24,549 bases of DNA from a virus. Shown in pieces: positions 2,121 through 23,573 of this stretch. Where the stretch lies: positions 1 to 24,549 of the IMG/VR virus record IMGVR_UViG_3300042455_000471, one strand, 5' to 3'. Under the pieces are notes generated by a model, which was not told the origin of the DNA, ran no database searches, and worked only from the letters and a program-made list of their open reading frames with translations. Position 1 is the stretch's first letter; each line of letters begins with the position of its first letter. Both the position numbers and the translations under genes were made by a program.

Positions 2121-3083
2121 CTATTCCTTAACAGGTCTAAATATTCCAATTAAGGAATTGTCGCCGGGTGTTCGATACCCGCTTGGCCAAGATCTTGTCA
2201 CAGACCCGCTCGAGGGATTATTAACATTTTTTGCTTTAGTGCTTTGATTACCACCAACAAAAGAGTATGTTCCGCTACTGGCAGTATAGATAAAATTCAC
2301 ATGACCATAACTCCATAAAGCTATGTCTCCAGGCTGTCCTTGATTAAGTGGGATCTTAACGGCTTTATATGCAGCAGCTTTATCCCTAATATCAAAAGCC
2401 CAGGCAGTTTGCACAAATCTGTAGCCGCATCGTTTCAACACCCAATTTACATAACCCATACACCAAGCAGTTTGGTCAGTAAGCCAAGCACCAGTCTGTG
2501 GATATCCAAGTTCTTTCCATATACCAGTGATCCTAGAATTACTGGCGCGGCCGCCCATTCCTGTCTCTTCCCAAATCCCCTTGCCGGCTTCGTCGAGATT
2601 CTGCGACAGCAATGAAGGAATGTCACTGGCTAGTACCACATCAGTGTCAATTAAACTCTCACCGTCTGCTCCTTGTGGAGTACCCGGAAAGTTTTGTTTA
2701 ACCTGGTCGTTAGATGCAACATTGTAAGCACCGGGATTAGCCACATATGCACTTGTTTGTCTGTTAATGGCTGCTTGTGTTGCTGGAGCAATTACTACAG
2801 GAGGGACTACAAAGGATGCAAATGTTCCGGAGAACACATTTCCGCTGCCAGTAGCAGGATGGCCACAGGTTGCCGCATCACCTTCTCTACATATTAGAAT
2901 GCCGTTAGCATATACTGTACTACTAGATCCAGCCATTGTAGGGCTACTATGCGAACCACGACCGTGACCTGCTACTGCATCTCCTAGTCTTGCAATTGGT
3001 GAACCATTTACAAAAACATTAGAAGAACCTGCTGCGATTGTTCCGCCGGCAATATCGGCGCCTTGTCTCGATACTCCTGGCAT
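2121..3083 (-). CDS. PAAR-repeat spike tip fused to a CHAP/NlpC-P60-like peptidoglycan hydrolase
   Basis: This 320-aa protein has two parts. Residues 1-88 are a PAAR domain: MPGVSRQGADIAGGTIAAG, VFVNGSPIARLGD, and H40, H45, C65, C73 and H75 as candidate Zn ligands, ending ATGSGNVFSG. PAAR proteins cap the membrane-piercing spike of contractile tails. Residues about 190-320 look like a CHAP/TIGR02594-type amidase or endopeptidase: TDQTAWCMGYVNWVLKRCGY with nucleophile C208, PGDIALWSYGHVNFIY with H261, and SFVGGNQ with N279. A linker of about 100 residues rich in Ala, Val and Pro joins them. The protein should sit at the baseplate tip and cut peptidoglycan during entry. It precedes two small, probably structural, genes. 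Each domain call is strong. Confidence 0.88.
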   Translation of the reverse strand: MPGVSRQGADIAGGTIAAGSSNVFVNGSPIARLGDAVAGHGRGSHSSPTMAGSSSTVYANGILICREGDAATCGHPATGSGNVFSGTFASFVVPPVVIAPATQAAINRQTSAYVANPGAYNVASNDQVKQNFPGTPQGADGESLIDTDVVLASDIPSLLSQNLDEAGKGIWEETGMGGRASNSRITGIWKELGYPQTGAWLTDQTAWCMGYVNWVLKRCGYRFVQTAWAFDIRDKAAAYKAVKIPLNQGQPGDIALWSYGHVNFIYTASSGTYSFVGGNQSTKAKNVNNPSSGSVTRSWPSGYRTPGDNSLIGIFRPVKE

Positions 3084-5170: not shown

Positions 5171-7500
5171 AATTTACATGCCTCGCAGTCTTCGTCTTCG
5201 ATTACTTCTCTTTCGTTATGGAACCCGTTGTAGTGTACTTCGGGAGTTGCTTCGGCCATTGCTTTGCTACCTGCCTTATTAATCAGGCTGTAGTAGAATG
5301 TTTTCAATCCCCACATGTGCGCCTGCATCAAATTTTTAGCAATCAATGTAGTAGGCACTTTACGATCTGCCCAGTGTGCTGGATTGTAGAATGTGTTAGT
5401 TGAAATTGATTGATCAACATAGGCAGCAAGAACTGCGGCTGTTTTCAAATAGCCATCACAGTCTTTCTGTTCCCACATCATTTGATATTTGTTTTTTAGT
5501 TTATGGTATTCAGGAACAACCTGTACAAATGATCCTGCCTTTGATTCTTTAACTGATATTAGGCTCATGGGCATTTCAATGCCATTGGTTGAGTTAATAA
5601 CAACACTTGAACTTTCAACAGGGGCAATGGCCATCAATGTGGCATTACGCACACCGTACTGCTTCATATTACCACGTAGTGTTTCCCAATCAAGTTCAGG
5701 AGCGAAGTCTGCCAGTTCATTAACACCCTTGGCACGAAGTTCCCAGGGAAAGACGCCTTGTCCATATCTAGTTTTATGACTCTCTGTACACGGGCCACGT
5801 TCTTTGGCTAATTCAACTGTGGCTTCTGTTAAGTAGAACGCTTGGTGCTCCATCCAGGTTTTAACATCCTGTAGTGCATCTTTCTCGCCATACTTGAGTC
5901 CACGCTTGGCATGCCAGTAGGCAAGATTTGTAACACCAATACCTAGTGGTTGTATCTCGTCGTTACTAAGTTTACTCTGTATCGACAAGAAATCTTGATA
6001 GTCAAGAATGTTACACAGGCTACGCTGTAGAATCCTACAGGCTCTACGCATATCCTCTGGATTGCGGAACGATCCCCAGTTGATAGATCCCAGTGTACAT
6101 AACGCTATGCGTCCACTATCGTCGTCTAATCGCTTAAATGAACGTGTGGGTAATAGGATCTCACAGCACAAGTTACTTTGATAAATCGTATGGTACTCAG
6201 GATCAAAAGGTCCTTGGTTCATGACATTATCAATGAATACGAGATATATTCGACCCGTGTCTGTGCGCTCTTTTAGTATACCACTCTTGAACACTTCTTC
6301 GGCACTCATCGTTTTCTTACGGAGGCCTTTTTGTTTTTCGTACTTGACATAGAGTTCTTCAAACAACTCAGTGTCTTTGTAAAACGCTTCGTATAGGTCA
6401 GGTACTTCGTTGGGATCAAAGAAGGTTATGTCTTCTTTGTTTTTGAATCGTCTCCAGAAGAAGGCACTAAGCACAACCCCATAATCCATATGACGGACTC
6501 GGGTTTCTTCTGTTCCTTGGTTGTTCTTAAGAACAATAAGATCATCAAACTGATGATGCCAAATAGGATAAAAAACAGTAGCACTTGCATTACGAATACC
6601 TCCTTGACTGCAACTACGCAGGTCACCAAACCACTTCTTCAAGAAGGGTATCATACCTGTGTGCATAATCTCACCACCACGGATGGGACTGCCTAATGGA
6701 CGTAGTCGTCCAATTTCTAAACCAATGCCTGCACGTTTGCTGGCATACTTGGCCATCATTTCACCTGAAGCAAAAATACTATCCAAGTCATCATCACTGC
6801 GAATAAGTACGCACGAACTGAATTGTTTAGTAGGGGTACCGAGACCAGCAAGGACAGGAGTAGCAAGAGTAAATAGACCATCGGAGGCTGCATTGTAGTA
6901 TTCCTTGATATAACGCATACGTGATGCATTAGGTTCTTCTTTATGAAAAACAGTAGCGGCTGCAACCATATATCTAATTTGTGGAGTTTCGTATGTTTGT
7001 TTTGTACTACGATTTTTAACTAGATACTTTTCTATCAATTGCTCAATGGCAGCATATGAATATGTTTCATCCTTTTCATGATCCAACATGTCATTCATCT
7101 TGTTCCAGTCATCTTCTGTGTACCACACAAGTAGGTCTGGCGTGTACAGACCGGTGGCCACATTTGTCTTGACTATTTCATATAGACTAGGGGGAGTGTA
7201 GCTACCGTAAACATCTTTACGCAACATGCTAACTCGCTGTTTGCCTGCTACATACTGATAATTGGTATGACCAACGTCGGGATTGTTTTCAACGTCTATG
7301 AGATCCACAATGGCTCTTAGAGTGATTTCATCTACTTCTCTTGTGGTTATGCCGTCATAAAAATGTGGCTGTGCTTTGATCTCGATCATGCTTTGGCTAA
7401 CATCTGCAATACCGCTACATACTTTTGCCACCTGTGCCTGCCATTTCTCAATGGTGAGTGGCTCTCGATCACCATTTCTTTTGATTACTGTTATTTCCAT
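5167..7500 (-). CDS. nrdA: Class I ribonucleotide reductase, alpha subunit
   Basis: The 777-aa protein is a full-length NrdA. Residues 1-90 resemble an ATP-cone (VIKRNGDREPLTIEKW). Catalytic residues are visible: C230 (FSSCVLI) and C468 (ALCTLGSINWG) as the redox pair, N443-L-C445-C-E447 with the thiyl cysteine C445, the radical-transfer tyrosines Y736-Y737 (TFYYS) and the C-terminal shuttle cysteines C772 and C775. It reduces ribonucleoside diphosphates for phage DNA synthesis. The C-terminal pair is C-x-x-C, closer than the C-x4-C of E. coli. The operon order is nrdA, nrdB, glutaredoxin. Upstream there is only a 13-base gap to the previous gene. Confidence 0.98.
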   Translation of the reverse strand: MEITVIKRNGDREPLTIEKWQAQVAKVCSGIADVSQSMIEIKAQPHFYDGITTREVDEITLRAIVDLIDVENNPDVGHTNYQYVAGKQRVSMLRKDVYGSYTPPSLYEIVKTNVATGLYTPDLLVWYTEDDWNKMNDMLDHEKDETYSYAAIEQLIEKYLVKNRSTKQTYETPQIRYMVAAATVFHKEEPNASRMRYIKEYYNAASDGLFTLATPVLAGLGTPTKQFSSCVLIRSDDDLDSIFASGEMMAKYASKRAGIGLEIGRLRPLGSPIRGGEIMHTGMIPFLKKWFGDLRSCSQGGIRNASATVFYPIWHHQFDDLIVLKNNQGTEETRVRHMDYGVVLSAFFWRRFKNKEDITFFDPNEVPDLYEAFYKDTELFEELYVKYEKQKGLRKKTMSAEEVFKSGILKERTDTGRIYLVFIDNVMNQGPFDPEYHTIYQSNLCCEILLPTRSFKRLDDDSGRIALCTLGSINWGSFRNPEDMRRACRILQRSLCNILDYQDFLSIQSKLSNDEIQPLGIGVTNLAYWHAKRGLKYGEKDALQDVKTWMEHQAFYLTEATVELAKERGPCTESHKTRYGQGVFPWELRAKGVNELADFAPELDWETLRGNMKQYGVRNATLMAIAPVESSSVVINSTNGIEMPMSLISVKESKAGSFVQVVPEYHKLKNKYQMMWEQKDCDGYLKTAAVLAAYVDQSISTNTFYNPAHWADRKVPTTLIAKNLMQAHMWGLKTFYYSLINKAGSKAMAEATPEVHYNGFHNEREVIEDEDCEACKL

Positions 7501-7513
7501 CTATGTCTCTACT

Positions 7514-8041
7514 TTATTTGATATTTATTGGTAATGCCGAACTGGACCACACGATGTCGGTTTTGATTTCTTGTAACACATTAAGATCATGAGCTATCCT
7601 TGGTTCGTAGTTTAACACAGCGTTATCTGCTACTAGAAAGAATTTTGAATCGTGATCTTTGGGGAGCATAGACTTATGTATCTCACAAACGGTATCCATA
7701 AACCGCTGTGTTAATTTAATAGTATACAGCATGCCGAGACAAATAGCAAGATCATCTAGCTTGCCGTCGATAACCAAATGCCAAGGGTCAGGCCAAGTGT
7801 TTGGTTGTTGGGGGTCTAAGAAAGGATTGACAAACGGAGCATGGCTCCAGAGTTCAGCAACATCACTTAATGGAGTGGCGCTGACTTCTAAACTATCTCT
7901 GAACTGCTTCCATTTAAATAATCTTTCGTTTCCGTAAAGATCAAACACCGTACGATATTGAATATGATATCGTTCCAGTTTGACCGGAAGACAGCGGATT
8001 TCGATATGACAACAACAGTGTTTCAATTCCACTGTCGCCAT
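7514..8041 (-). CDS. Hypothetical protein, 175 aa, start overlaps tail-spike 3' end
   Basis: I do not recognise the family. The sequence begins MATVELKHCCCHIEIRCLPV, followed by the aromatic and Pro-rich block WSHAPFVNPFLDPQQPNTW and PDPWHLVIDGKLDDLAICLG. Such composition (many W, H, P, D) is typical of a real folded protein, not a shadow. The ATG lies 101 bases inside the spike gene in another frame, with only a weak AAAAGA upstream; no internal ATG before residue 98 is available, so a non-ATG start near 7940 is the alternative. It ends 13 bases before nrdA. Possible roles include a spike chaperone or adaptor, unproven. Confidence 0.65.
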   Translation of the reverse strand: MATVELKHCCCHIEIRCLPVKLERYHIQYRTVFDLYGNERLFKWKQFRDSLEVSATPLSDVAELWSHAPFVNPFLDPQQPNTWPDPWHLVIDGKLDDLAICLGMLYTIKLTQRFMDTVCEIHKSMLPKDHDSKFFLVADNAVLNYEPRIAHDLNVLQEIKTDIVWSSSALPINIK

Positions 8042-9533
8042 CGTTGTCTTTTAATTCTACATTAAAAACAAAATCTGTCATAAGAATCCCCTCTGGTGTA
8101 GATGAACTGGGTGATGAATACACGTAGTTGTCGGAGAATGTAAATTCGCCTACTGACTCAGTGACCATTACCACTATTTGTCCTGCTCGTGAATGATCGC
8201 CTAACTGTAAAACATAATCTATGTAGGTATATCTGTTGAATGCTGCAAATACTGACAGTGGTTTAAAACCGTCTGATAGATAGATTATTTCATAATTCAT
8301 ATCTATCAAACTGACCCTGGAGGCGTTTTCAACTTCTGTTATTGCAGGTCTAGTACTCACTGCGGTGAATCCTGCTGCTTGATGTCTGTTGCTGGTGCTG
8401 TCAATCACAGTATTGCCATTTTTCTCTCCAAACTTGACGATACTGGATGTTGGCGTGGCTGCGTTGTTGGTGTTGTTGCCGCAGTTGATGAATCTGGAAC
8501 GTTGTATAACTGTGCCTGTACCATTGTCAGATATAAAGGCGTGTGCGGCAATTTCTTCAAACTCACAGTCAAAGACACGCCATAGGTTTCCTTGGCCGGG
8601 TACACCGTTAATCACTATTGCGGTGTTGCAGACAAAAAATCTACAGCCGTCAAATTTCACGCTGGTATCAAAACTTGGCGGAGCACTGGAATCTATGGTA
8701 ATCTGATCAGATCTCACGGCCAACGGAGTTGATTGCCACACACAGTCTTTGAGCGTGATGTTGGTTACTTTAGTACCATCAAGACTGTTTTCCCAGTACA
8801 ATGATGGATTGGAGTTTTGAATATCACCAACGATAGGGTCTCCCAACACATAGCCGCTGGTCCATTTTACATTGGTGAACGCACTATCTGCTACTCCGGT
8901 TAATACCGTTTGACCTTGATTGTGATCAATTGTTAAATTACTGATATTGACATCGGTTGGTCTATTGCCACTGGTGAATTCTGCAACTTCTTGACCGTTA
9001 GCTGTGACAAATAAAATACTGTTGTTGCCTATCTGCAGAATAGCACCGTCTCTGGTTTCGCCTTGTATCTTTGCCGTGCTAGGAATTTTTAAGTTGCTGC
9101 TGAAAAAATATGTGCCGTTGGGGATCAGCAGAGTTTTTTTGAATCTAGGATCTATGTTTCTAAACAATTCATTCAAGGCATTTTGAAAAAATGGCACACA
9201 GTCTGTGCTGCCATCCGGTATGGCTCCAAAATCCAACACACTGACATATTCATCTAATTTGGTCTGAAGTGACCTGGCAACACTTTGCGCTATAGAAGGT
9301 TCAGATTCACTGAATCTATAACTGGCTGCAAGTTCTAATATGTTATCATGCTCGGTGAGCACTTTGGTATTGCCAACATAAGGGGCACCGTCAGCCACGC
9401 TGCCGTTACCTATGAACAGTTCCTGGGAATCTACTGCCCATGCAAATTCTGCCGCGCTCAGTTGAGGAACACCGATTCCTGCATTTTTAAGGCCTCTTCT
9501 GACCTGGATTTTTGATATCTGGACAACAGCCAT
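7941..9533 (-). CDS. Tail spike/fibre with Mtd-N-like anchor and pectate-lyase-type beta-helix
   Basis: The 530-aa protein has an N-terminal segment (residues 1-60: VQISKIQVRRG, AAEFAWAVDSQELFIGNG) that matches the short N-terminal fold of phage tropism-determinant and other baseplate-attached fibres. A linker helix (about 70-92) leads to VLDFGAIPDGSTDCVPFFQNAL, the signature start of the pectate-lyase-3/tail-spike right-handed beta-helix, followed by many short N/T/S-rich coils (IQGETRDGAILQIGN, TDVNISNLTIDH, IVINGVPGQGNLW). The C-terminus YSISYGV is a typical trimer-end strand. Such spikes bind, and often cleave, surface polysaccharide. Catalytic residues cannot be assigned. A late-promoter-like motif lies 24 bases upstream. 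Confidence 0.88.
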   Translation of the reverse strand: MAVVQISKIQVRRGLKNAGIGVPQLSAAEFAWAVDSQELFIGNGSVADGAPYVGNTKVLTEHDNILELAASYRFSESEPSIAQSVARSLQTKLDEYVSVLDFGAIPDGSTDCVPFFQNALNELFRNIDPRFKKTLLIPNGTYFFSSNLKIPSTAKIQGETRDGAILQIGNNSILFVTANGQEVAEFTSGNRPTDVNISNLTIDHNQGQTVLTGVADSAFTNVKWTSGYVLGDPIVGDIQNSNPSLYWENSLDGTKVTNITLKDCVWQSTPLAVRSDQITIDSSAPPSFDTSVKFDGCRFFVCNTAIVINGVPGQGNLWRVFDCEFEEIAAHAFISDNGTGTVIQRSRFINCGNNTNNAATPTSSIVKFGEKNGNTVIDSTSNRHQAAGFTAVSTRPAITEVENASRVSLIDMNYEIIYLSDGFKPLSVFAAFNRYTYIDYVLQLGDHSRAGQIVVMVTESVGEFTFSDNYVYSSPSSSTPEGILMTDFVFNVELKDNDGDSGIETLLLSYRNPLSSGQTGTISYSISYGV

Positions 9534-14380: not shown

Positions 14381-15481
14381 TTAGTCGGCTCTAAAAGGAG
14401 TCCAGCGGTCTCTAGGTACCAACTTTGAACCACCAGCAACATAGCCTTCCCCGCCGGGCTTGCCACCTGTTGTGGCTGTAATGTCACCTCCGGCAGCGTC
14501 TAACTCACGTATTACTTCATCTTTGGCTGCCATGATTTCACGCACCAGTTCAAACAACTTGTCCATAACTCCTGGATGTTGTTCGCTGTGTGCTGTGATC
14601 TTGGCAGCTTTAGCAGGAGTTTTTTGCACAAAAGACATGAACGCTTCTGTGTTGATGTTGTCCAATTGCTTGGCCTTTGATTGAGTGTTCACAAAGGTAT
14701 AGATCTCACTCTGCAGATAGCCCATGCCTGCTACAGGAGCCAACAGGTTGTTTATTGCCCGCTGATTTTTGGCCAATGCTTCTATCTTGCTGAGATTATC
14801 TGCTCCCACAGCAGGTCTGTAACTCACACTGGTGAGTCCAAACACCTTGAGTTCAGGGTTACCACTGAACTGCTCAACGTCATTGAAGTCTTCACCACTC
14901 TTGTCTCCAAAGTAACTGAACAGTTTGTGTGCTGCCACTGCCACTTTGGCCTTGGCCAACTGACGGCCAACTTCACTGCTGCCTGTCACGGAATAAGTGG
15001 TTTGATTAGGAGTGAATGATATTTTACCATCGCCACCTTTATAGGGTTTACCTGGATGGAATAGAATATCTCCATAAACATAGCCACGGAATTCTGCAGG
15101 TGTTGCCTTTTCAAATATGGGCCACAGTGCGGCCATATCACTGGCAAATTTAGGACGCCAGTCTTCACCTTTGCCACGACTCATGATAAACTGTTTTAAT
15201 TCTTCTGGGTTAGAGCTTTTGCCTTCTTCACGTCCCCAGTTGTTCTTGCCTACCATGCGGAAGGTGCCATCTTCTTCACGTCCCCAATAGACTGTGGGGT
15301 TGCCGTCCCACTTAATGGTAATACTGGTTTCTGGACTGGCTAAATCTTTTAGGATCTGTATGGCTTTGACAGCACCATTGGCCTCTGTGAACACTAGATC
15401 TTCTAGGTGATTAAACTCACGGCCCACTTTCTTGGGTGCAGGAGCCGCTTCGTCTTCAATTAGGAATTCAAATGCTCTCAT
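14381..15481 (-). CDS. KxDG nucleotidyltransferase (ligase/DUF6267-like)
   Basis: The 366-aa protein has K57-W-D-G60 (TIKWDGNPTVYWG), which looks like motif I of covalent nucleotidyltransferases (DNA/RNA ligases, capping enzymes), followed by FRMVGKNNW, FRGYVYGDILF (motif III-like G-D) and GKISFTPNQTTYSV. It resembles the phage family I know as DUF6267; no OB-fold or helicase part is evident. The likely chemistry is transfer of AMP or GMP to a lysine and on to a nucleic acid end or other acceptor. The ATG at 15481 overlaps the upstream stop (ATGA); a TTG 30 bases further upstream has no support. The N-terminus MRAFEFLIED resembles neighbouring proteins. Confidence 0.82.
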   Translation of the reverse strand: MRAFEFLIEDEAAPAPKKVGREFNHLEDLVFTEANGAVKAIQILKDLASPETSITIKWDGNPTVYWGREEDGTFRMVGKNNWGREEGKSSNPEELKQFIMSRGKGEDWRPKFASDMAALWPIFEKATPAEFRGYVYGDILFHPGKPYKGGDGKISFTPNQTTYSVTGSSEVGRQLAKAKVAVAAHKLFSYFGDKSGEDFNDVEQFSGNPELKVFGLTSVSYRPAVGADNLSKIEALAKNQRAINNLLAPVAGMGYLQSEIYTFVNTQSKAKQLDNINTEAFMSFVQKTPAKAAKITAHSEQHPGVMDKLFELVREIMAAKDEVIRELDAAGGDITATTGGKPGGEGYVAGGSKLVPRDRWTPFRAD

Positions 15482-16287
15482 TTTGTAATGTTTATCATTC
15501 TGCGCATCCAACCTATTGTTCCAGGTTGATAGCTTTCAAAGGCTTCGTTCTTCGGCAATTCGATTCCTTGTTTGCCTAGTGTTTCTCTAGCACCTGCAAC
15601 TAGCTCTTCGTAGTTGGGCAGTTTCTTGATATAATTGAGAATGGTGTCCACAGAACGAATGTCTTTGACCGTGGCTGATTGTCCCAATAGCTGCTTGCTG
15701 ATCACATTCCAATCGTTGCCGTCAGGTAACAGTTCGTCTGTGGTAGCGTTTAGTAAACCATGTTTGGGACTGTACTTCATGCCTCTAGCACGGGCAATTG
15801 AACTCAATACAATGTGGCGGTGCTCTCCACGGTACTCACCCTGTCCACCGATCATGCTACCTTGTTGAAACTTGGGATTTGCGGAAAACATAAAGTCAGC
15901 TTGCACAAACCCATTGGCAGCATCACCGTTGATAGGAGTTTTCCAATGCACATTATCTCCGCTGAGCTTGACATTTTCTTTGCCAAACTGTGCTATCAAT
16001 TTGTCGGCAAAGGCTCTTTTGTCTACTTCATTGGCATCCACTGAAAGATCTAGATCCCCGGAACTGTTGCGCTCAAAGGTGCCATCTGGATCTTCTTTGC
16101 GGCCTGTGGTGCCCAACCATTTCACCGGTTTTTTGTCATCTGCGTGTTTTTCTTTGGTAAAGTCCAGGCCTGTGATCTTTTCGATATACAGGACCGTCGA
16201 CTCAACGTCGCCTGTGGCGATGCGTTGCGTTAGTGATTTTTTATCGGCGTCCTTGAATACATTACCGCCTTCAAATAGCTTATTCAT
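15478..16287 (-). CDS. Pol-beta-superfamily nucleotidyltransferase
   Basis: The 269-aa protein has a nucleotidyltransferase core: GTTGRK at residues 59-64, then SGDLDLSVD with D78-x-D80, and FVQADFMFS with D131 as the third carboxylate. These would bind two Mg ions and transfer a nucleotide from an NTP. The following block (YRGEHRHIVLSSIARARG) is conserved-looking and basic. It is translated directly before the KxDG nucleotidyltransferase with a 4-base overlap, and its start overlaps the small upstream gene by 8 bases, so the three are one operon. The substrate is unknown; tRNA, RNA ends or protein are all possible. N-terminus: MNKLFEGG. Confidence 0.8.
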   Translation of the reverse strand: MNKLFEGGNVFKDADKKSLTQRIATGDVESTVLYIEKITGLDFTKEKHADDKKPVKWLGTTGRKEDPDGTFERNSSGDLDLSVDANEVDKRAFADKLIAQFGKENVKLSGDNVHWKTPINGDAANGFVQADFMFSANPKFQQGSMIGGQGEYRGEHRHIVLSSIARARGMKYSPKHGLLNATTDELLPDGNDWNVISKQLLGQSATVKDIRSVDTILNYIKKLPNYEELVAGARETLGKQGIELPKNEAFESYQPGTIGWMRRMINITK

Positions 16288-16567
16288 TGTTGTTAGATTC
16301 TTCTAGTTTTCTTTTGGCCTTACGCGATTCTGCCAATCTTCGTACACCGCGGGTAAATTTACTGGGATCTTGTCCTTTGATAGCATTGATCAATCGACGC
16401 TCTAATTCGTCAGCACTTTCAGCGTCATAATGCTTGTGTATGCTTTCCAACAGATTAATAGCGGAATTAATGATGTTGGTGGCACGGCTTTCGATCAACG
16501 AATCCGTATTGCGTACTTCGGCAATTTCATTGAGTTCCTGCAGAATTGATCTGGTACGAAGTTTCAT
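16280..16567 (-). CDS. Small helical basic protein, 95 aa, first gene of the nucleotidyltransferase operon
   Basis: The protein is almost entirely helical: MKLRTRSILQELNEIAEVRN, INSAINLLESIHKHYDAESA, DELERRLINAIKGQD, then a basic tail (GVRRLAESRKAKRKLEE). No enzyme motif is visible. It has a good ribosome site (ATAGGAAAC) and overlaps the Pol-beta-type gene by 8 bases. It could be a partner or nucleic-acid-binding subunit of the two nucleotidyltransferases, by position only. A TATAAT-like -10 element on the minus strand lies at 16606-16611, without a good -35. Confidence 0.75.
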   Translation of the reverse strand: MKLRTRSILQELNEIAEVRNTDSLIESRATNIINSAINLLESIHKHYDAESADELERRLINAIKGQDPSKFTRGVRRLAESRKAKRKLEESNNNE

Positions 16568-16648
16568 AAATTGTTTCCTATCATGTATTTAACTCATTTT
16601 AAACAATTATAACATTGTACTGAAAAATGCGCGATTGCACAAGAGCTG

Positions 16649-18015: not shown

Positions 18016-18720
18016 TTATGCTCTAACTGTTGCTAATTTAAAGAACCGCAGTATACAGATATACATCCAGCCAATATCGAACTCCCACCAACGTTGACTA
18101 AACTTAGCATTGGCTCCGTCTGCATGATGCCCGTTGTGTAGCTCCTCGCCGCCTATCCAGAAAGCCCAGGGTATTAAATTCTTCGAAGTGTCGTTGGTTT
18201 CAACATTTCGATATCCCCACCAATGGCTGAGTCCGTTGATAACTCCAGCTGCCCATATTGGAATCCAAATCATTTGAATACCCCACACCACTAAACCTAT
18301 AGGGCCAAAAAGAACAAGGTCTATGACCAACATTAAAAGAATCCCTAAGCGGCTGTGCGGGGTATAAAGTTTACGCTCGATCCAGTCATTAGGTGTGCCT
18401 GTGCTCAACTGATCGATCATTGCGGTATCTTTGCTAGCCTTGTGATATAAGAATGCTCCGCCAAATAGCACACGCCAAATTCCGTATATTTGGGGACTAT
18501 GCGGATCGCCCTCTTGATCACTCTTCTGGTGATGTTTGCGATGGATGGCTACCCATTGTTTGGTCACCATACCGGTTGATAACCATAGCCAAAAGCGCAT
18601 TAGATGTGCCAGGATTGGGTGAAATTGTACTGCTCTGTGTGCTTGACTTCTATGTAGGTATAGAGTGACACAGGCTATGGTAATTTGAACCATTACCAAG
18701 GTTGCGATTATTATATTCAT
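18016..18720 (-). CDS. Fatty-acid desaturase (delta-9/acyl-CoA type)
   Basis: The 234-aa membrane enzyme has all three histidine boxes of membrane diiron desaturases: H23-RSQA-H28, H60-RK-H63-H64 and H195-NG-H198-H199 (EELHNGHHADG), plus an extra His in GLSHWWGY. Hydrophobic segments lie at about 3-21, 36-53, 125-143 and 146-165. It should insert a double bond in acyl chains, raising membrane fluidity. It is shorter than typical bacterial delta-9 desaturases but complete in its boxes. Desaturases are known in T4-like cyanophages. There is no clear Shine-Dalgarno at the ATG at 18720; the gene is divergent from the HAD gene and ends at the bidirectional terminator. Confidence 0.95.
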   Translation of the reverse strand: MNIIIATLVMVQITIACVTLYLHRSQAHRAVQFHPILAHLMRFWLWLSTGMVTKQWVAIHRKHHQKSDQEGDPHSPQIYGIWRVLFGGAFLYHKASKDTAMIDQLSTGTPNDWIERKLYTPHSRLGILLMLVIDLVLFGPIGLVVWGIQMIWIPIWAAGVINGLSHWWGYRNVETNDTSKNLIPWAFWIGGEELHNGHHADGANAKFSQRWWEFDIGWMYICILRFFKLATVRA

Positions 18721-18769: not shown

Positions 18770-19369
18770 ATGAAAAACAAACTTATACTCACCGATGCCG
18801 ATGGCGTCTTGTTAGATTGGGAATGGGCGTTCTCAGTTTGGATGCAAGAACGTGGATACACACTAACAGCGGATAACAAGAAAAGCTATTATCTACATCA
18901 CCACTATAACGAACTAGAAGAAAAAGATGCCAAAAAGGTTGTAAAGACTTTTAACGAATCTGCAGCAATTGGATTCCTTCCTGCACTTAGAGATGCTGCT
19001 CACTATGTTAAACGACTACATGAAGAACACGGCTACGAATTCCGTGTTATCACAAGCCTAAGTCTGGACAAGAACGCACAGAAACTGCGTGAAATGAATC
19101 TACGTAAGTTGTTTGGCAATGCTATCGAAACAGTTATTTGCCTAGATACAGGCGCAGACAAAGATTCTGCATTGGCTCCATACAAAGACAGCGGCCTGTG
19201 GTGGATTGAAGATAAACCTGCCAATGCTGATGTCGGACATGCTTTAGGTTTGAAATCTGTTCTTATTGAACACGGGCATAATATGCATCACAAGTGTTCT
19301 TACCCTGTAGTCAAGAATTGGAGTGAACTCTACGAACTTGTTTTAACTCCAGTATCTACTGCTGTCTAA
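18770..19369 (+). CDS. HAD-superfamily hydrolase (phosphatase/deoxyribonucleotidase-like)
   Basis: The 199-aa protein has the HAD motif I LTDADGVLLDW with nucleophile D9 and D11, a motif II Ser/Thr in VITSLS, and a motif IV-like WWIEDKPANAD, in a Rossmann layout with a small cap. It may dephosphorylate a nucleotide or another small phosphate ester, similar to phage 5'(3')-deoxyribonucleotidase-like HADs; the substrate is not proven. The promoter is a perfect sigma70 consensus placed so that translation starts at the mRNA 5' end, and no Shine-Dalgarno exists. Its 3' end overlaps the convergent glycosyltransferase gene by 27 bases. Confidence 0.88.
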   Translation: MKNKLILTDADGVLLDWEWAFSVWMQERGYTLTADNKKSYYLHHHYNELEEKDAKKVVKTFNESAAIGFLPALRDAAHYVKRLHEEHGYEFRVITSLSLDKNAQKLREMNLRKLFGNAIETVICLDTGADKDSALAPYKDSGLWWIEDKPANADVGHALGLKSVLIEHGHNMHHKCSYPVVKNWSELYELVLTPVSTAV

Positions 19370-20059
19370 ACTGTCCCAGTAGGCTTTATTATTGCGATTG
19401 ACAAAGTTCTTAACTAGGTACTTGGCCATGCCCATATAGCCCATCTTCTTAAACCTACGGCTATCTTGTCCAAAGTGATGGCGAATGATTCTAAACTTTT
19501 TAGGGCTATACTTGCGTGATAAGAAGAAGTCTTCGCTTGTGGAAAACTGTTCAGGAAATCCCCCAAACTCTTCAAAACGATCTCTGCGGGTCAGCATGAA
19601 TGCTCCCACAGCAAAGGGTGAGAAGAATTTTAATGCATGATTGATTAGATTAAATGTAGTAAATCCGACTTTAGCTCTTAGATCCTTGTCGTAGCATTTG
19701 ATGTTTAGGCCAATGAGATCTAGGTTCTTACTCTCAATCAAATTGACAGCATCTTGAATCACAGTGTCTTTAAAGAAGCGCACATCAGCATCAATGAATA
19801 ATATGTAGGGCGTATTAACCAATCGAGCTCCGTTGTTCTTAGCAAAGCTAACAGGCCCGCCATCGATAACCTCAACATTCAACTCACCTTTCATTATTTC
19901 GATAACTTCTCGTGTTTTGTCTGTGGAACAATCTGCAATGATAATTCTGGTGTTGCCTATTGATTGTTGGCGTAGATGCATTAGCAAATGCGCAATGTAG
20001 TTTTCCTCATTCTTACAGGGTACCACTATGGTAATTTTATCACTTATTGTTTTTGGCAT
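19343..20059 (-). CDS. Family 2 glycosyltransferase
   Basis: The 238-aa protein is a GT-A fold enzyme: TIVVPCKNEENYIAHLL at the N-terminus, IIADCSTDKT (D43), and ILFIDADVRF with the metal-binding D90-x-D92. GAFMLTRRDRFEEFGGFPE is the usual acceptor-side segment, followed by TSEDFFLSRK. It would transfer a sugar from a nucleotide-sugar to a glycan, lipid or protein acceptor. No membrane segment is certain. The ribosome site AAGGTAGAAGGCAA precedes the ATG and the gene follows the LpxH-like gene by 21 bases, so the two may share a transcript. The 3' end overlaps the HAD gene on the other strand. Confidence 0.92.
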   Translation of the reverse strand: MPKTISDKITIVVPCKNEENYIAHLLMHLRQQSIGNTRIIIADCSTDKTREVIEIMKGELNVEVIDGGPVSFAKNNGARLVNTPYILFIDADVRFFKDTVIQDAVNLIESKNLDLIGLNIKCYDKDLRAKVGFTTFNLINHALKFFSPFAVGAFMLTRRDRFEEFGGFPEQFSTSEDFFLSRKYSPKKFRIIRHHFGQDSRRFKKMGYMGMAKYLVKNFVNRNNKAYWDSLDSSRYWS

Positions 20060-20080
20060 TTGCCTTCTACCTTAAAATTA

Positions 20081-20965
20081 TTAAACTTTAGCTGCCACTT
20101 CATCGACGCTAGGGTCATCTCGCAACTGGCTTGATCTTTGAATGCTAGTTCTATTCTTCCCGGAACGTCTTGAGGATTGTTCACGTGAACCGCTATTAGT
20201 ATCAGTATCCACATCGTCTCGCTCCTTAGTCCAAGTTATGATTTCCCACTTACCATCGTGGTGCTCTACAAGTGCTGTACACGATTCAACCCAGTCGCCG
20301 TCATTCATATACGTAATGCCATCTATCTCTTTGATCTCTGCGTGATGTATGTGTCCGCATATGACACCGTCAAAGCCGCGTTTCTTACAGTAGGCCATTA
20401 GATTCCGTTCAAACTGAAATATAAAGTCTACTGCTTTCTTAACACGGGCTTTAAGATACTTGCTCAAACTCCAATAGCCAAAACCCATACGATGTCGTAG
20501 CCAATTGAACTTGCTGTTGGCAGATAGAATAAAGTCATAGGCCTTATCACCTAAGAATGCCAACCACGGTGCCAGTCGGGTAATGCCGTCAAACAGGTCG
20601 CCGTGGGTGACTAGATAGTGTTTGCCGTCTACCCCAACATGTTCAAATTGATTAACCACTTCCACATTGCCAAAGTTAATACCGTAGGGCATTAATGGTC
20701 TTAAGAATTCATCGTGATTGCCTGCTACGTAGATTACTCGTGTGCCACGTTTGGCATGTCCAAGTATACGTCTTACAACATTGGTGTGTGATTGCTTCCA
20801 ACGCCATTTGTTTTGTTGTATGCGCCATACATCTAGTATGTCCCCTACCATATAGAGTGTTTCGCAGGTGTTGTGTTTGAGAAAGTTGTTTAACTTATCA
20901 GCTTGACTATCTCTAGTACCTAAATGCACATCGGATATAAAAATAGAGCGATAAGTTTTTAGCAT
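20081..20965 (-). CDS. LpxH-like metallophosphoesterase with charged C-terminal tail
   Basis: The 294-aa enzyme shows the metallophosphoesterase ligands in order: SDVHLG (D12, H14), GDILD (D42), GNHDEF (N83, H84), THGDLFD (H121) and GHIHHAE (H205, H207). The pattern and the region LMPYGINFGNVEVV match the UDP-2,3-diacylglucosamine pyrophosphatase (LpxH) group of lipid A synthesis. Residues about 248-294 form an extra Ser/Arg/Asp-rich, probably disordered tail not usual for LpxH. It precedes the glycosyltransferase. The motif GATAAATA lies six bases before the ATG and no Shine-Dalgarno is seen. LpxH activity is inference; other UDP-sugar or nucleotide phosphoesters are possible. Confidence 0.88.
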   Translation of the reverse strand: MLKTYRSIFISDVHLGTRDSQADKLNNFLKHNTCETLYMVGDILDVWRIQQNKWRWKQSHTNVVRRILGHAKRGTRVIYVAGNHDEFLRPLMPYGINFGNVEVVNQFEHVGVDGKHYLVTHGDLFDGITRLAPWLAFLGDKAYDFILSANSKFNWLRHRMGFGYWSLSKYLKARVKKAVDFIFQFERNLMAYCKKRGFDGVICGHIHHAEIKEIDGITYMNDGDWVESCTALVEHHDGKWEIITWTKERDDVDTDTNSGSREQSSRRSGKNRTSIQRSSQLRDDPSVDEVAAKV

Positions 20966-22826: not shown

Positions 22827-23573
22827 TTAGAATCCGTTAGTGGCTGAGTTGTAGAACAGTTTACCAGACCAGTTTGATGTTTTAGATTGTGTACTACTTG
22901 CCCAACTAACCGTCATTGTGCCTGGTCCTGTTAGGTTACCAAACATAACACGGAAAGGATAGTAGATGTTCGCTGTCATTGCTATAGTCCCGCTCACTTC
23001 TGTAACACCGTGAAGACCGCCGTTCTTTACAACGGCATTAGTATGAGTATATCCTGTAATAGCATCCGGGCCTATCCACATATAACTAGCATCGTCGGTG
23101 CTGGTGTAGAATGTATAGGTATCTGTAGTAGGTGCTAAGAAGTATCCTGTCAGCATAATGCTGGTATATTCTGGTAGGCTGGATAAGTTTAAACTTGTAT
23201 AGACACCTTGAGAAGTAGCAGCATAGGTATCGAAAAATGTTAGATCATCGTTAGCCGGAGTAAAATCAGTACCAAAATAGCCATTAGCATTTGTTGTGCC
23301 AGTTACTGTGCGATGATAAACTCCAGATGTAAATGTAATAGCTGCAACGTTAATCCATGGACGCCCTTGCAATAATCCACCTGGATTAGAATTATTCACT
23401 AATGTATTTCCAGAATACTTAGTAGGCAGATTATCTATATCGTAGGTGTTATTTTCTCTATAGTATGGCGCAGTAGTATCGCCTGCTGCTTGTCGTCTTG
23501 TTTGTGCGATGCCTAGCTTGGCTTCTTGCTTTAACTGTTTAGTTGATAGTGTTGATATTCCGTTTGCGGCCAT
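22827..23573 (-). CDS. Phage virion protein with a GLEYA/PA14-like carbohydrate-binding domain
   Basis: The 248-aa protein has an N-terminal virion segment (MAANGISTLSTKQLKQEAKL, LPTKYSGNTLVNNSNPGGLL) and a C-terminal jelly-roll with LTGYFLAPTTDTYTFYTSTD, DASYMWIGPDA and YYPFRVMFGNLTGPGTMTVS. The phrase TDTYTFYTSTDDASYMWIG is the hallmark of GLEYA/PA14 domains, which bind glycans in yeast flocculins and bacterial adhesins. It is probably a tail-fibre or head decoration protein that contacts surface sugars. AGAGGATATAATA forms the ribosome site, with a weak GGTAAATA motif upstream (23592-23599). The GLEYA label is by pattern; PA14 is the closest alternative. Confidence 0.82.
   Translation of the reverse strand: MAANGISTLSTKQLKQEAKLGIAQTRRQAAGDTTAPYYRENNTYDIDNLPTKYSGNTLVNNSNPGGLLQGRPWINVAAITFTSGVYHRTVTGTTNANGYFGTDFTPANDDLTFFDTYAATSQGVYTSLNLSSLPEYTSIMLTGYFLAPTTDTYTFYTSTDDASYMWIGPDAITGYTHTNAVVKNGGLHGVTEVSGTIAMTANIYYPFRVMFGNLTGPGTMTVSWASSTQSKTSNWSGKLFYNSATNGF

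Follow-up and report, generated by a model that had tools for sequence, protein, structure and literature searches.

What would a phage do with two unlike nucleotide-transferring enzymes made from overlapping genes? The question is raised by a stretch of viral DNA of 24,549 nucleotides (IMG/VR record IMGVR_UViG_3300042455_000471, positions 1 to 24,549; hereafter the window), in which a small gene, a gene for a nucleotidyltransferase (NTase) of the Pol-beta superfamily and a gene for a protein with the ligase-type motif KxDG form one operon. An earlier inspection of the letters alone (the sequence-only reading) had picked out this coupled pair and suggested that the two enzymes process and then seal nucleic acid ends. 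Here we report that the KxDG protein belongs to the family DUF6267, that the NTase has an affinity to the family X DNA polymerases, and that the locus carries a T4-like leader, sites resembling those of a prohead protease and a late-type promoter box, none of which the sequence-only reading had noted. The reading that we favor, with a probability of about 0.5, is that of a late-made, head-packaged gap-fill-and-seal pair that is ejected with the genome.

The operon and its two enzymes

The genes for the small partner (16280-16567, 95 residues), the NTase (15478-16287, 269 residues) and the KxDG protein (14381-15481, 366 residues counted from ATG) all lie on the minus strand and overlap by 8 bases (16280-16287) and by ATGA (15478-15481), which confirms the arrangement first described. 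The small protein had been called basic, which is true only mildly (18 K/R and 16 D/E in a hand count). For the KxDG gene the open reading frame (ORF) program gave an alternative upstream start, TTG at 15511, which turns K57-G60 into K67-G70. The ORF begins at the ATG in 93 loci and has an in-frame start 30 bases earlier in 105; because it begins there in 93 loci, and because a conserved leader opens with this codon, ATG at 15481 is most likely the translation start. The motifs originally listed (D78-x-D80 and D131 in the NTase, K57-W-D-G60 in its partner) are present and are invariant among relatives, and hence are not due to chance.

The KxDG protein is a member of DUF6267 (Pfam PF19782) with an E-value of 5.5e-18 and 65.9 bits, against a curated cut-off of 27. 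In 39 aligned KxDG proteins, which reach down to 30% identity, K67-W-D69-G70, H35, E37, D38, D148, E355-G356, K363 and R367 (numbered from the TTG) are all invariant. We take these residues to represent motifs I, IV and V of ligases and capping enzymes, with motif I, K-W-D-G, at 15302-15313 on the minus strand; the features of the covalent nucleotidyltransferase superfamily, namely KxDG, EG and the motif V lysine, are found in 39 of 39 rows. Structures were predicted with the Phosso and S-WAM1 rows left out. The DUF6267 model has a mean predicted local distance difference test score (pLDDT) of 86.3, a disordered segment at residues 1-25 (pLDDT below 50) and an extended helical region within residues 237-340. 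RNA or DNA ligases account for 50 of the 50 best structural matches listed, below which ligase-unlike folds may rank, and the top-scoring ones are RNA ligases. Searches against NCBIfam gave no matches, and PDB sequence profiles matched nothing relevant. Membership of a defense system was considered and disregarded, as PADLOC offered only DpdE for the KxDG protein, at an E-value of 0.019.

Turning to the NTase, the three catalytic aspartates expected of family X are present as D78, D80 and D131, which show no variation across 28 aligned NTases (relatives that share 51-94% identity with the window protein) and also in a set of nine rows reaching 25% identity. Its model (pLDDT 88.9; residues 1-7 disordered, with pLDDT below 50) has the family X fold, comprising what we take to be the palm and its flanking subdomains. 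DNA polymerase lambda, beta or mu entries fill all 50 of the best structural matches listed, led by Pol lambda with a Z-score of 9.8 and a root-mean-square deviation of 3.6 Å over 183 aligned residues (model residues 1-219); family X is over-represented in the PDB, and such a list is compatible with other Pol-beta families, which may rank lower. For this reason we built a profile of cellular family X proteins, collected by a motif pattern from at least 118 loci, of which 80 were scanned and 74 used. A profile of 120 distinct NTases scored 36.6 against it (P 3.4e-4, 150 columns), whereas 40 block shuffles reached at most 24.2 and reversing the profile gave 13.0; the more diverse nine-row set scored 41.0, with a maximum of 20.0 in 30 shuffles. 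The hhalign probabilities were only 38-66%. For the sequences displayed, the alignment pairs GTTGRK with GSLRR, SSGDLDL with TIGDLDL, VQADFM with LQVDLR and RHIVLSSIARARGMKYSPKHGLL with NVRLRELAGRQGLKVNEYGVF.

RlaP, a Pol-beta-superfamily NTase of phages, was also considered. The window NTase matches no Pfam family at E-values up to 10, and thus not PF10127; against a two-sequence RlaP profile the NTase scored 15.1 and 13.7, at the null level, and membership of RlaP was rejected on both counts. A weak search for cellular homologues, made with one degenerate pattern over genome contigs, returned 24 stretches and no relative. On the basis of its profile scores and predicted fold, we would place the NTase near the family X DNA polymerases and not with RlaP. 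The original assignment, a Pol-beta-superfamily NTase coupled to a protein with the covalent nucleotidyltransferase fold, is right with respect to both motifs and structural matches, the latter being weak for the KxDG model.

Coupling of the two families

All three genes occur together in 205 of the 217 loci from our first searches, a set that was itself selected by the pair. The remaining 12 comprise seven without a KxDG gene, four without the small gene, and S-WAM1. Five of the seven end in or just past the NTase gene and one is Phosso; the last, L203 (5995-6765), holds the NTase and small genes with no detected KxDG gene, though about 6 kb follow and there is no truncation. To test the coupling more fairly, we searched with DUF6267 proteins from two branches (L205 and L208), 30% and 34% identical to the window protein, and obtained 93 loci, 85 of which were informative in having more than 1 kb upstream. 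The NTase is present in 85 of 85 and the small gene in 84, counts that include the two query records, whose loci were already known to contain both genes, and in which one contig may appear twice and related sequences are not independent. The NTase and ligase genes overlap or are fused in 75 of 89 pairs at the loci from these queries.

The partner that the NTase overlaps in Phosso and Atu_ph07 is another KxDG protein, which matches PF09414 (RNA_ligase) below the family cut-off in both cases (E-value 9.8e-4 over positions 3-169 of 171 in Atu_ph07; 0.024 in Phosso). Beside the Lak-A2 NTase we saw no KxDG ORF large enough for a ligase; the ORF that follows, of 122 residues, contains a KIDG string. 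A search of 50,697 phage records detected DUF6267 in 469, and 454 of these bear the name Synechococcus, Cyanophage or Prochlorococcus. The NTase matched one phage record with the window query and nine with the Phosso query, in organism groups that differ from those named for DUF6267, and no cyanophage record with DUF6267 matched either query. The expectation that the two families would travel together therefore holds within this phage lineage, where they are inseparable, but not for DUF6267 at large.

Six phage loci (L436-L441) encode an in-frame fusion of a Cu/Zn superoxide dismutase with DUF6267; in L437 (4377-6101) the dismutase part is identified with an E-value of 1.7e-47. These fusions are in keeping with oxidative damage.

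The cyanophage members have a setting of their own. In S-WAM1 and S-PM2 the DUF6267 gene lies in a replication cluster, near DNA polymerase, recombinase, primase-helicase and MazG genes, and neither genome has a match to PF01068 or PF01653. Homologues of T4 DNA ligase have not been found in cyanomyoviruses, where distant ones may be unidentified or the enzyme absent (PMC2984593). DUF6267 is a candidate for the missing ligase of the T4-like cyanophages. An annotated cytidyl(yl)transferase follows DUF6267 in S-WAM1 (where it is CTP_transf_like), S-WAM2, S-H9-2, S-RIM2 and P-TIM40, and no such neighbor was present in the stretch of S-SM2 that was read. The 591-residue 'cytidyltransferase-like' protein of S-PM2 matches the DUF6267 model over 398 columns and is likely a fusion of the two.

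Leaders, cleavage-like sites and the phage head

The DUF6267 protein starts with MRAFEFLIE (15455-15481, minus strand), which resembles the leader MKTYQEFIAE of the T4 internal head proteins IPII and IPIII, and the NTase starts with MNKLFE (16270-16287, minus strand), a leader with a cleavage-like LxE↓GG end (arrow, putative cut). In T4, packaging needs no more than ten residues of the capsid-targeting leader, whose processing depends on residues 8 and 10 (PMC9026906). Over 150 kb of T4, with 230 ORFs, a leader pattern matches two, IPII and IPIII, and none of 813 internal methionines. In G001, a relative of 353 kb, it matches 7 of 455 ORFs and none of 1607 internal methionines; in a second relative, G002, the figures are 7 of 359 and none of 1295, and five of the leader-bearing ORFs are alike by eye between the two genomes. 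Among the 109 distinct KxDG proteins of the first locus set, 105 have the strict form, and [LIV]xE stands ahead of the domain in 61 of 66 distinct DUF6267 proteins of the L205 and L208 branches. The NTases have [LIV]xEGG in 115 of 117 distinct sequences. The small partner begins with MKLRTRSILQE, which includes an [LI]xE site, and an N-terminal SI[LI]xE[LI] is found in all 90 of its distinct relatives.

Sites of the form [LI]xE↓[AGSD] are concentrated ahead of the catalytic domains, occurring within 25 residues before the domain in 138 of 167 distinct KxDG proteins. Their density in KxDG proteins is 37 per 1000 residues before the domain and 0.74 inside, and in 161 NTases 81 and 0.81, against a background of 2.5 in G001 proteins generally; this 50- to 100-fold difference is to be read as a pattern and not as a P-value, as the boundaries were set by the analyst and the sequences are related. 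The same layout is seen in two polyproteins. L445 (2661-6095) encodes 1144 residues comprising a HIGH-like start (by eye), a part matching DUF2608 (E-value 1.8e-5) that we infer to be HAD-like, the NTase and DUF6267 (E-value 2.2e-36), and has four sites, two of them at the starts of the NTase and the ligase. L446 (3-4289; at least 1428 residues, 5' end open) resembles it with an added HD domain (E-value 1.1e-7), and its eight sites, with N also allowed after the E, include those immediately ahead of the HAD-like, NTase and DUF6267 parts. Neither polyprotein has an [LI]xE cleavage-like site inside its NTase or DUF6267 part. A HExxH-like stretch is visible by eye in L446.

In 24 distinct KxDG stretches the leader is followed by a module, WSxKYKxSIxC..GFSQxAHCxGRKK, and leader and Cys/His module together also occur on four other proteins (L147, L173, L188 and L208). 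The L208 protein (7151-8272), encoded between the NTase and DUF6267 genes, is itself a second NTase-like protein (GSS..GDVDL..QIDFM by eye), with no Pfam match at E-values up to 0.1. Other leader-like starts are MRLRELHE on a further protein of G001 that is Pol-beta-like by eye (303064-303774; TGSNANYTWTEHSDLDLH) and, judged by eye, MKAIEILSESQ on Phosso gp449 (L155 7488-7685), two genes past the NTase. The HIGH-type 'cytidyltransferase' has a T4-like leader in S-WAM1, S-RIM2 and P-TIM40 (L156 9167-10222, L404 3393-4550, L407 4168-5241) and is without one in S-WAM2 and S-H9-2; what appears to be its G001 equivalent, at 133582, begins with MKLLELFE.

An S77 prohead protease is encoded in four of seven records searched and a gp23-type capsid protein in five of five, G001 and G002 being included in both counts; these genes were assessed in relatives, the window being a fragment. 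The G001 capsid protein has KYLAE↓SATAG near its start, where it is presumably cleaved, and the small partner matches phrog_11854, annotated 'virion structural protein', with an E-value of 4.9e-20. Upstream of the operon, at 16586-16591 on the minus strand, stands TAAATA, which we take to be the exact letters of the T4 late box. Of 107 distinct regions preceding the small gene, 106 have it within 90 nucleotides, mostly at -22 to -27, and it lies at most 60 nucleotides upstream of 78 of 455 genes in G001 (372 of 20,000 random windows) and 55 of 359 in G002 (317 of 20,000). We read it as the -10 box of a late promoter because T4 late promoters use a TATA-type late box (PMC2988020). Taken together, the T4-like leader, the protease sites and the late box favor packaging in the head over an early operon that acts in the cell.

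Elsewhere in the window are a PAAR motif joined to a CHAP domain (2121-3083), perhaps a tail-tip lysin, a fatty acid desaturase gene (18016-18720; PF00487, E-value 5.4e-12), a glycosyltransferase (PF00535) in tandem with a calcineurin-like phosphoesterase (PF00149) at 19343-20965, and a GLEYA/PA14 adhesin-type domain (22827-23573).

Proposed repair from within the particle, its rivals and its relatives

In the reading that we favor, late transcription of the operon would yield a small head protein, a family-X-like NTase and a ligase-type DUF6267 enzyme. Like the capsid-targeting sequences of T4, short N-terminal leaders would direct the enzymes to the prohead core, and would be trimmed after [LI]xE by the T4-type (S77) prohead protease. 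The mature enzymes would be packaged alongside the genome and ejected together with it; the polymerase-like enzyme may then fill short gaps and the ligase-type enzyme seal the remaining nicks, such that damaged ends or gaps in the DNA of the entering phage (or, less probably, in RNA) could be repaired before any phage gene is expressed. When a family-X-like enzyme is coupled to one of ligase type, filling followed by sealing suggests itself naturally, and the sequence-only interpretation, plausible on this point, is partly supported overall. A DNA substrate is somewhat favored over RNA, although unproven, because of the family X affinity, the head-type leaders and the superoxide dismutase fusions. 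A broader proposal, which we put forward tentatively, is that the pair forms an in-capsid repair kit of a gap filler and a new type of ligase, delivered by leaders or as polyproteins cut by the head protease, which bring HAD-like and HD parts along (or, at other loci, superoxide dismutase), and that leaderless DUF6267 is also an unrecognized polynucleotide ligase of cyanophages.

A number of findings weigh against packaged repair. The best structural match of the DUF6267 model (Z 6.4, 4.7 Å, 179 residues) is within the range common to shared fold arrangements, so that the case for a ligase is carried by the motifs. Small ligase profiles of one to four sequences (Rnl1, Rnl2, gp30-type and the Phosso/Atu_ph07 partners) all scored within their shuffled nulls against DUF6267, the partner profile reaching 23.0 with a null maximum of 24.9. 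Pfam polymerase families were matched by 0 of 28 NTases, although 11 families were listed at E-values up to 10; with no Pfam Pol X match, the NTase is not filed as a family X member, and the sole NTase family listed was AbiEii, for one of the 28 at an E-value of 0.14. Both the leader pattern and the boundaries of the domains postdate our inspection of the sequences, and the pattern does not match T4 IPI or Alt. The strict leader is present in just 10 of 66 distinct DUF6267 proteins of the L205 and L208 branches, two of 117 NTases have no leader, 29 of 167 KxDG proteins have no site in the 25 residues before the domain, and the pairs of Phosso and Atu_ph07, like the six cyanophage DUF6267 proteins inspected, are leaderless. 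TAAATA lies directly upstream of only two of seven leader-bearing ORFs in G001 and two of seven in G002; the remainder may be inside operons. Both of these relatives encode a canonical ATP-dependent DNA ligase (PF01068), which disfavors a replicative ligase role for DUF6267 in the jumbo phages.

The strongest rival, which we consider rather unlikely, is RNA repair, in which the NTase would restore nucleotides lost from cleaved tRNAs and DUF6267 would reseal them, as an RlaP/Rnl-like counter-defense against anticodon nucleases. The RNA ligases at the head of the DUF6267 structural matches and the sub-threshold PF09414 matches of the Phosso and Atu_ph07 partners are consistent with such a role, as are the HD and HAD-like parts of L446, which are end-healing types described for RNA repair (PMC7824862), and the 32 tRNA genes and transfer-messenger RNA gene of G001 (L223 4882-5318; L224, L225, L238). 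However, PF10127 was not found in G001 or G002, the NTase scored at null level against RlaP, albeit with a profile of two sequences, and the late-type box and head-type leader indicate the particle, in which an RNA-repair kit could still be packaged.

Modification of other molecules is improbable. Here the NTase would nucleotidylate a protein or small molecule, and DUF6267 would take part in the chemistry of cofactors or nucleotides together with a HIGH-type nucleotidylyltransferase. This would account for the cytidyl(yl)transferases that follow DUF6267 in five cyanophages, the likely fusion in S-PM2 and the HIGH-like start of L445, which L446 resembles; Pol-beta NTases of injected proteins have been treated as protein modifiers (PMC5512222), and HIGH-type synthesis of NAD (nicotinamide adenine dinucleotide) is described in phages (PMC9503650). 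However, by motif a HIGH-DUF6267 fusion can be recognized in just one of 93 loci and none of 217, to which similarity adds L446 as a second; no such neighbor is seen in the stretch of S-SM2 that was read, and nucleic acid ends are a better fit for ligase and family X folds. Slightly less probable again is that the proteins are components of the head core with enzyme-derived folds whose activity is not needed; the leader and site pattern and the virion annotation of the small partner's family would suit this, but the catalytic residues are invariant across aligned relatives. That the genes are chance neighbors in a gene-dense phage is highly improbable: the families do occur apart, in Lak-A2 and the cyanophages, but the NTase is present in 85 of 85 informative loci, two polyproteins join it to DUF6267, and in Phosso and Atu_ph07 it overlaps another KxDG protein.

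If packaged repair is correct, phage particles carry repair enzymes besides effectors of host takeover, DUF6267 gains a function, and the combination of leader and polyprotein layout offers a means of picking out candidate packaged cargo by sequence. The question of the cyanophage ligase becomes directly testable, given the position of DUF6267 in the replication cluster and the missing PF01068 and PF01653 matches. We found no mention of DUF6267 by name in the literature searched, and no report of the NTase/DUF6267 pair as packaged in the excerpts of the top listings.

Several known systems offer partial parallels. RlaP with its RNA ligase (PF10127; T4 nrdC.11; PMC7824862) likewise sets a Pol-beta-superfamily NTase beside a covalent ligase in phages; the present system differs in having no PF10127 match, a null-level profile score, a DUF6267 ligase, head-type leaders and a late-type box. 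The DNA polymerase X and DNA ligase of African swine fever virus (PMC5330486, PMC6344480) pair a small family X polymerase with a ligase in viral gap-fill-and-seal repair, a likeness of description; here the virus is a phage, and DUF6267 is not a Pfam DNA-ligase family. The cyanophage proteins are of the same family, PF19782, but the six inspected are leaderless, have no detected NTase and, in S-WAM1 and S-PM2, stand beside replication genes. In the matter of delivery there are IPII and IPIII of T4 (PMC9026906), which share an M[KR]..EF[LI]xE-type leader, LxE/IxE-type sites, an S77 protease and a gp23-type capsid; here packaging is predicted, and the cargo would consist of nucleotidyltransferase-fold enzymes, in part as polyproteins. 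The polyproteins of L445 and L446 are alike in idea to the polyvalent proteins (PMC5512222), which are multi-domain and predicted to be packaged and injected, but the enzyme set here is repair-like, is mostly encoded by separate genes and has prohead-protease-like sites between its parts.

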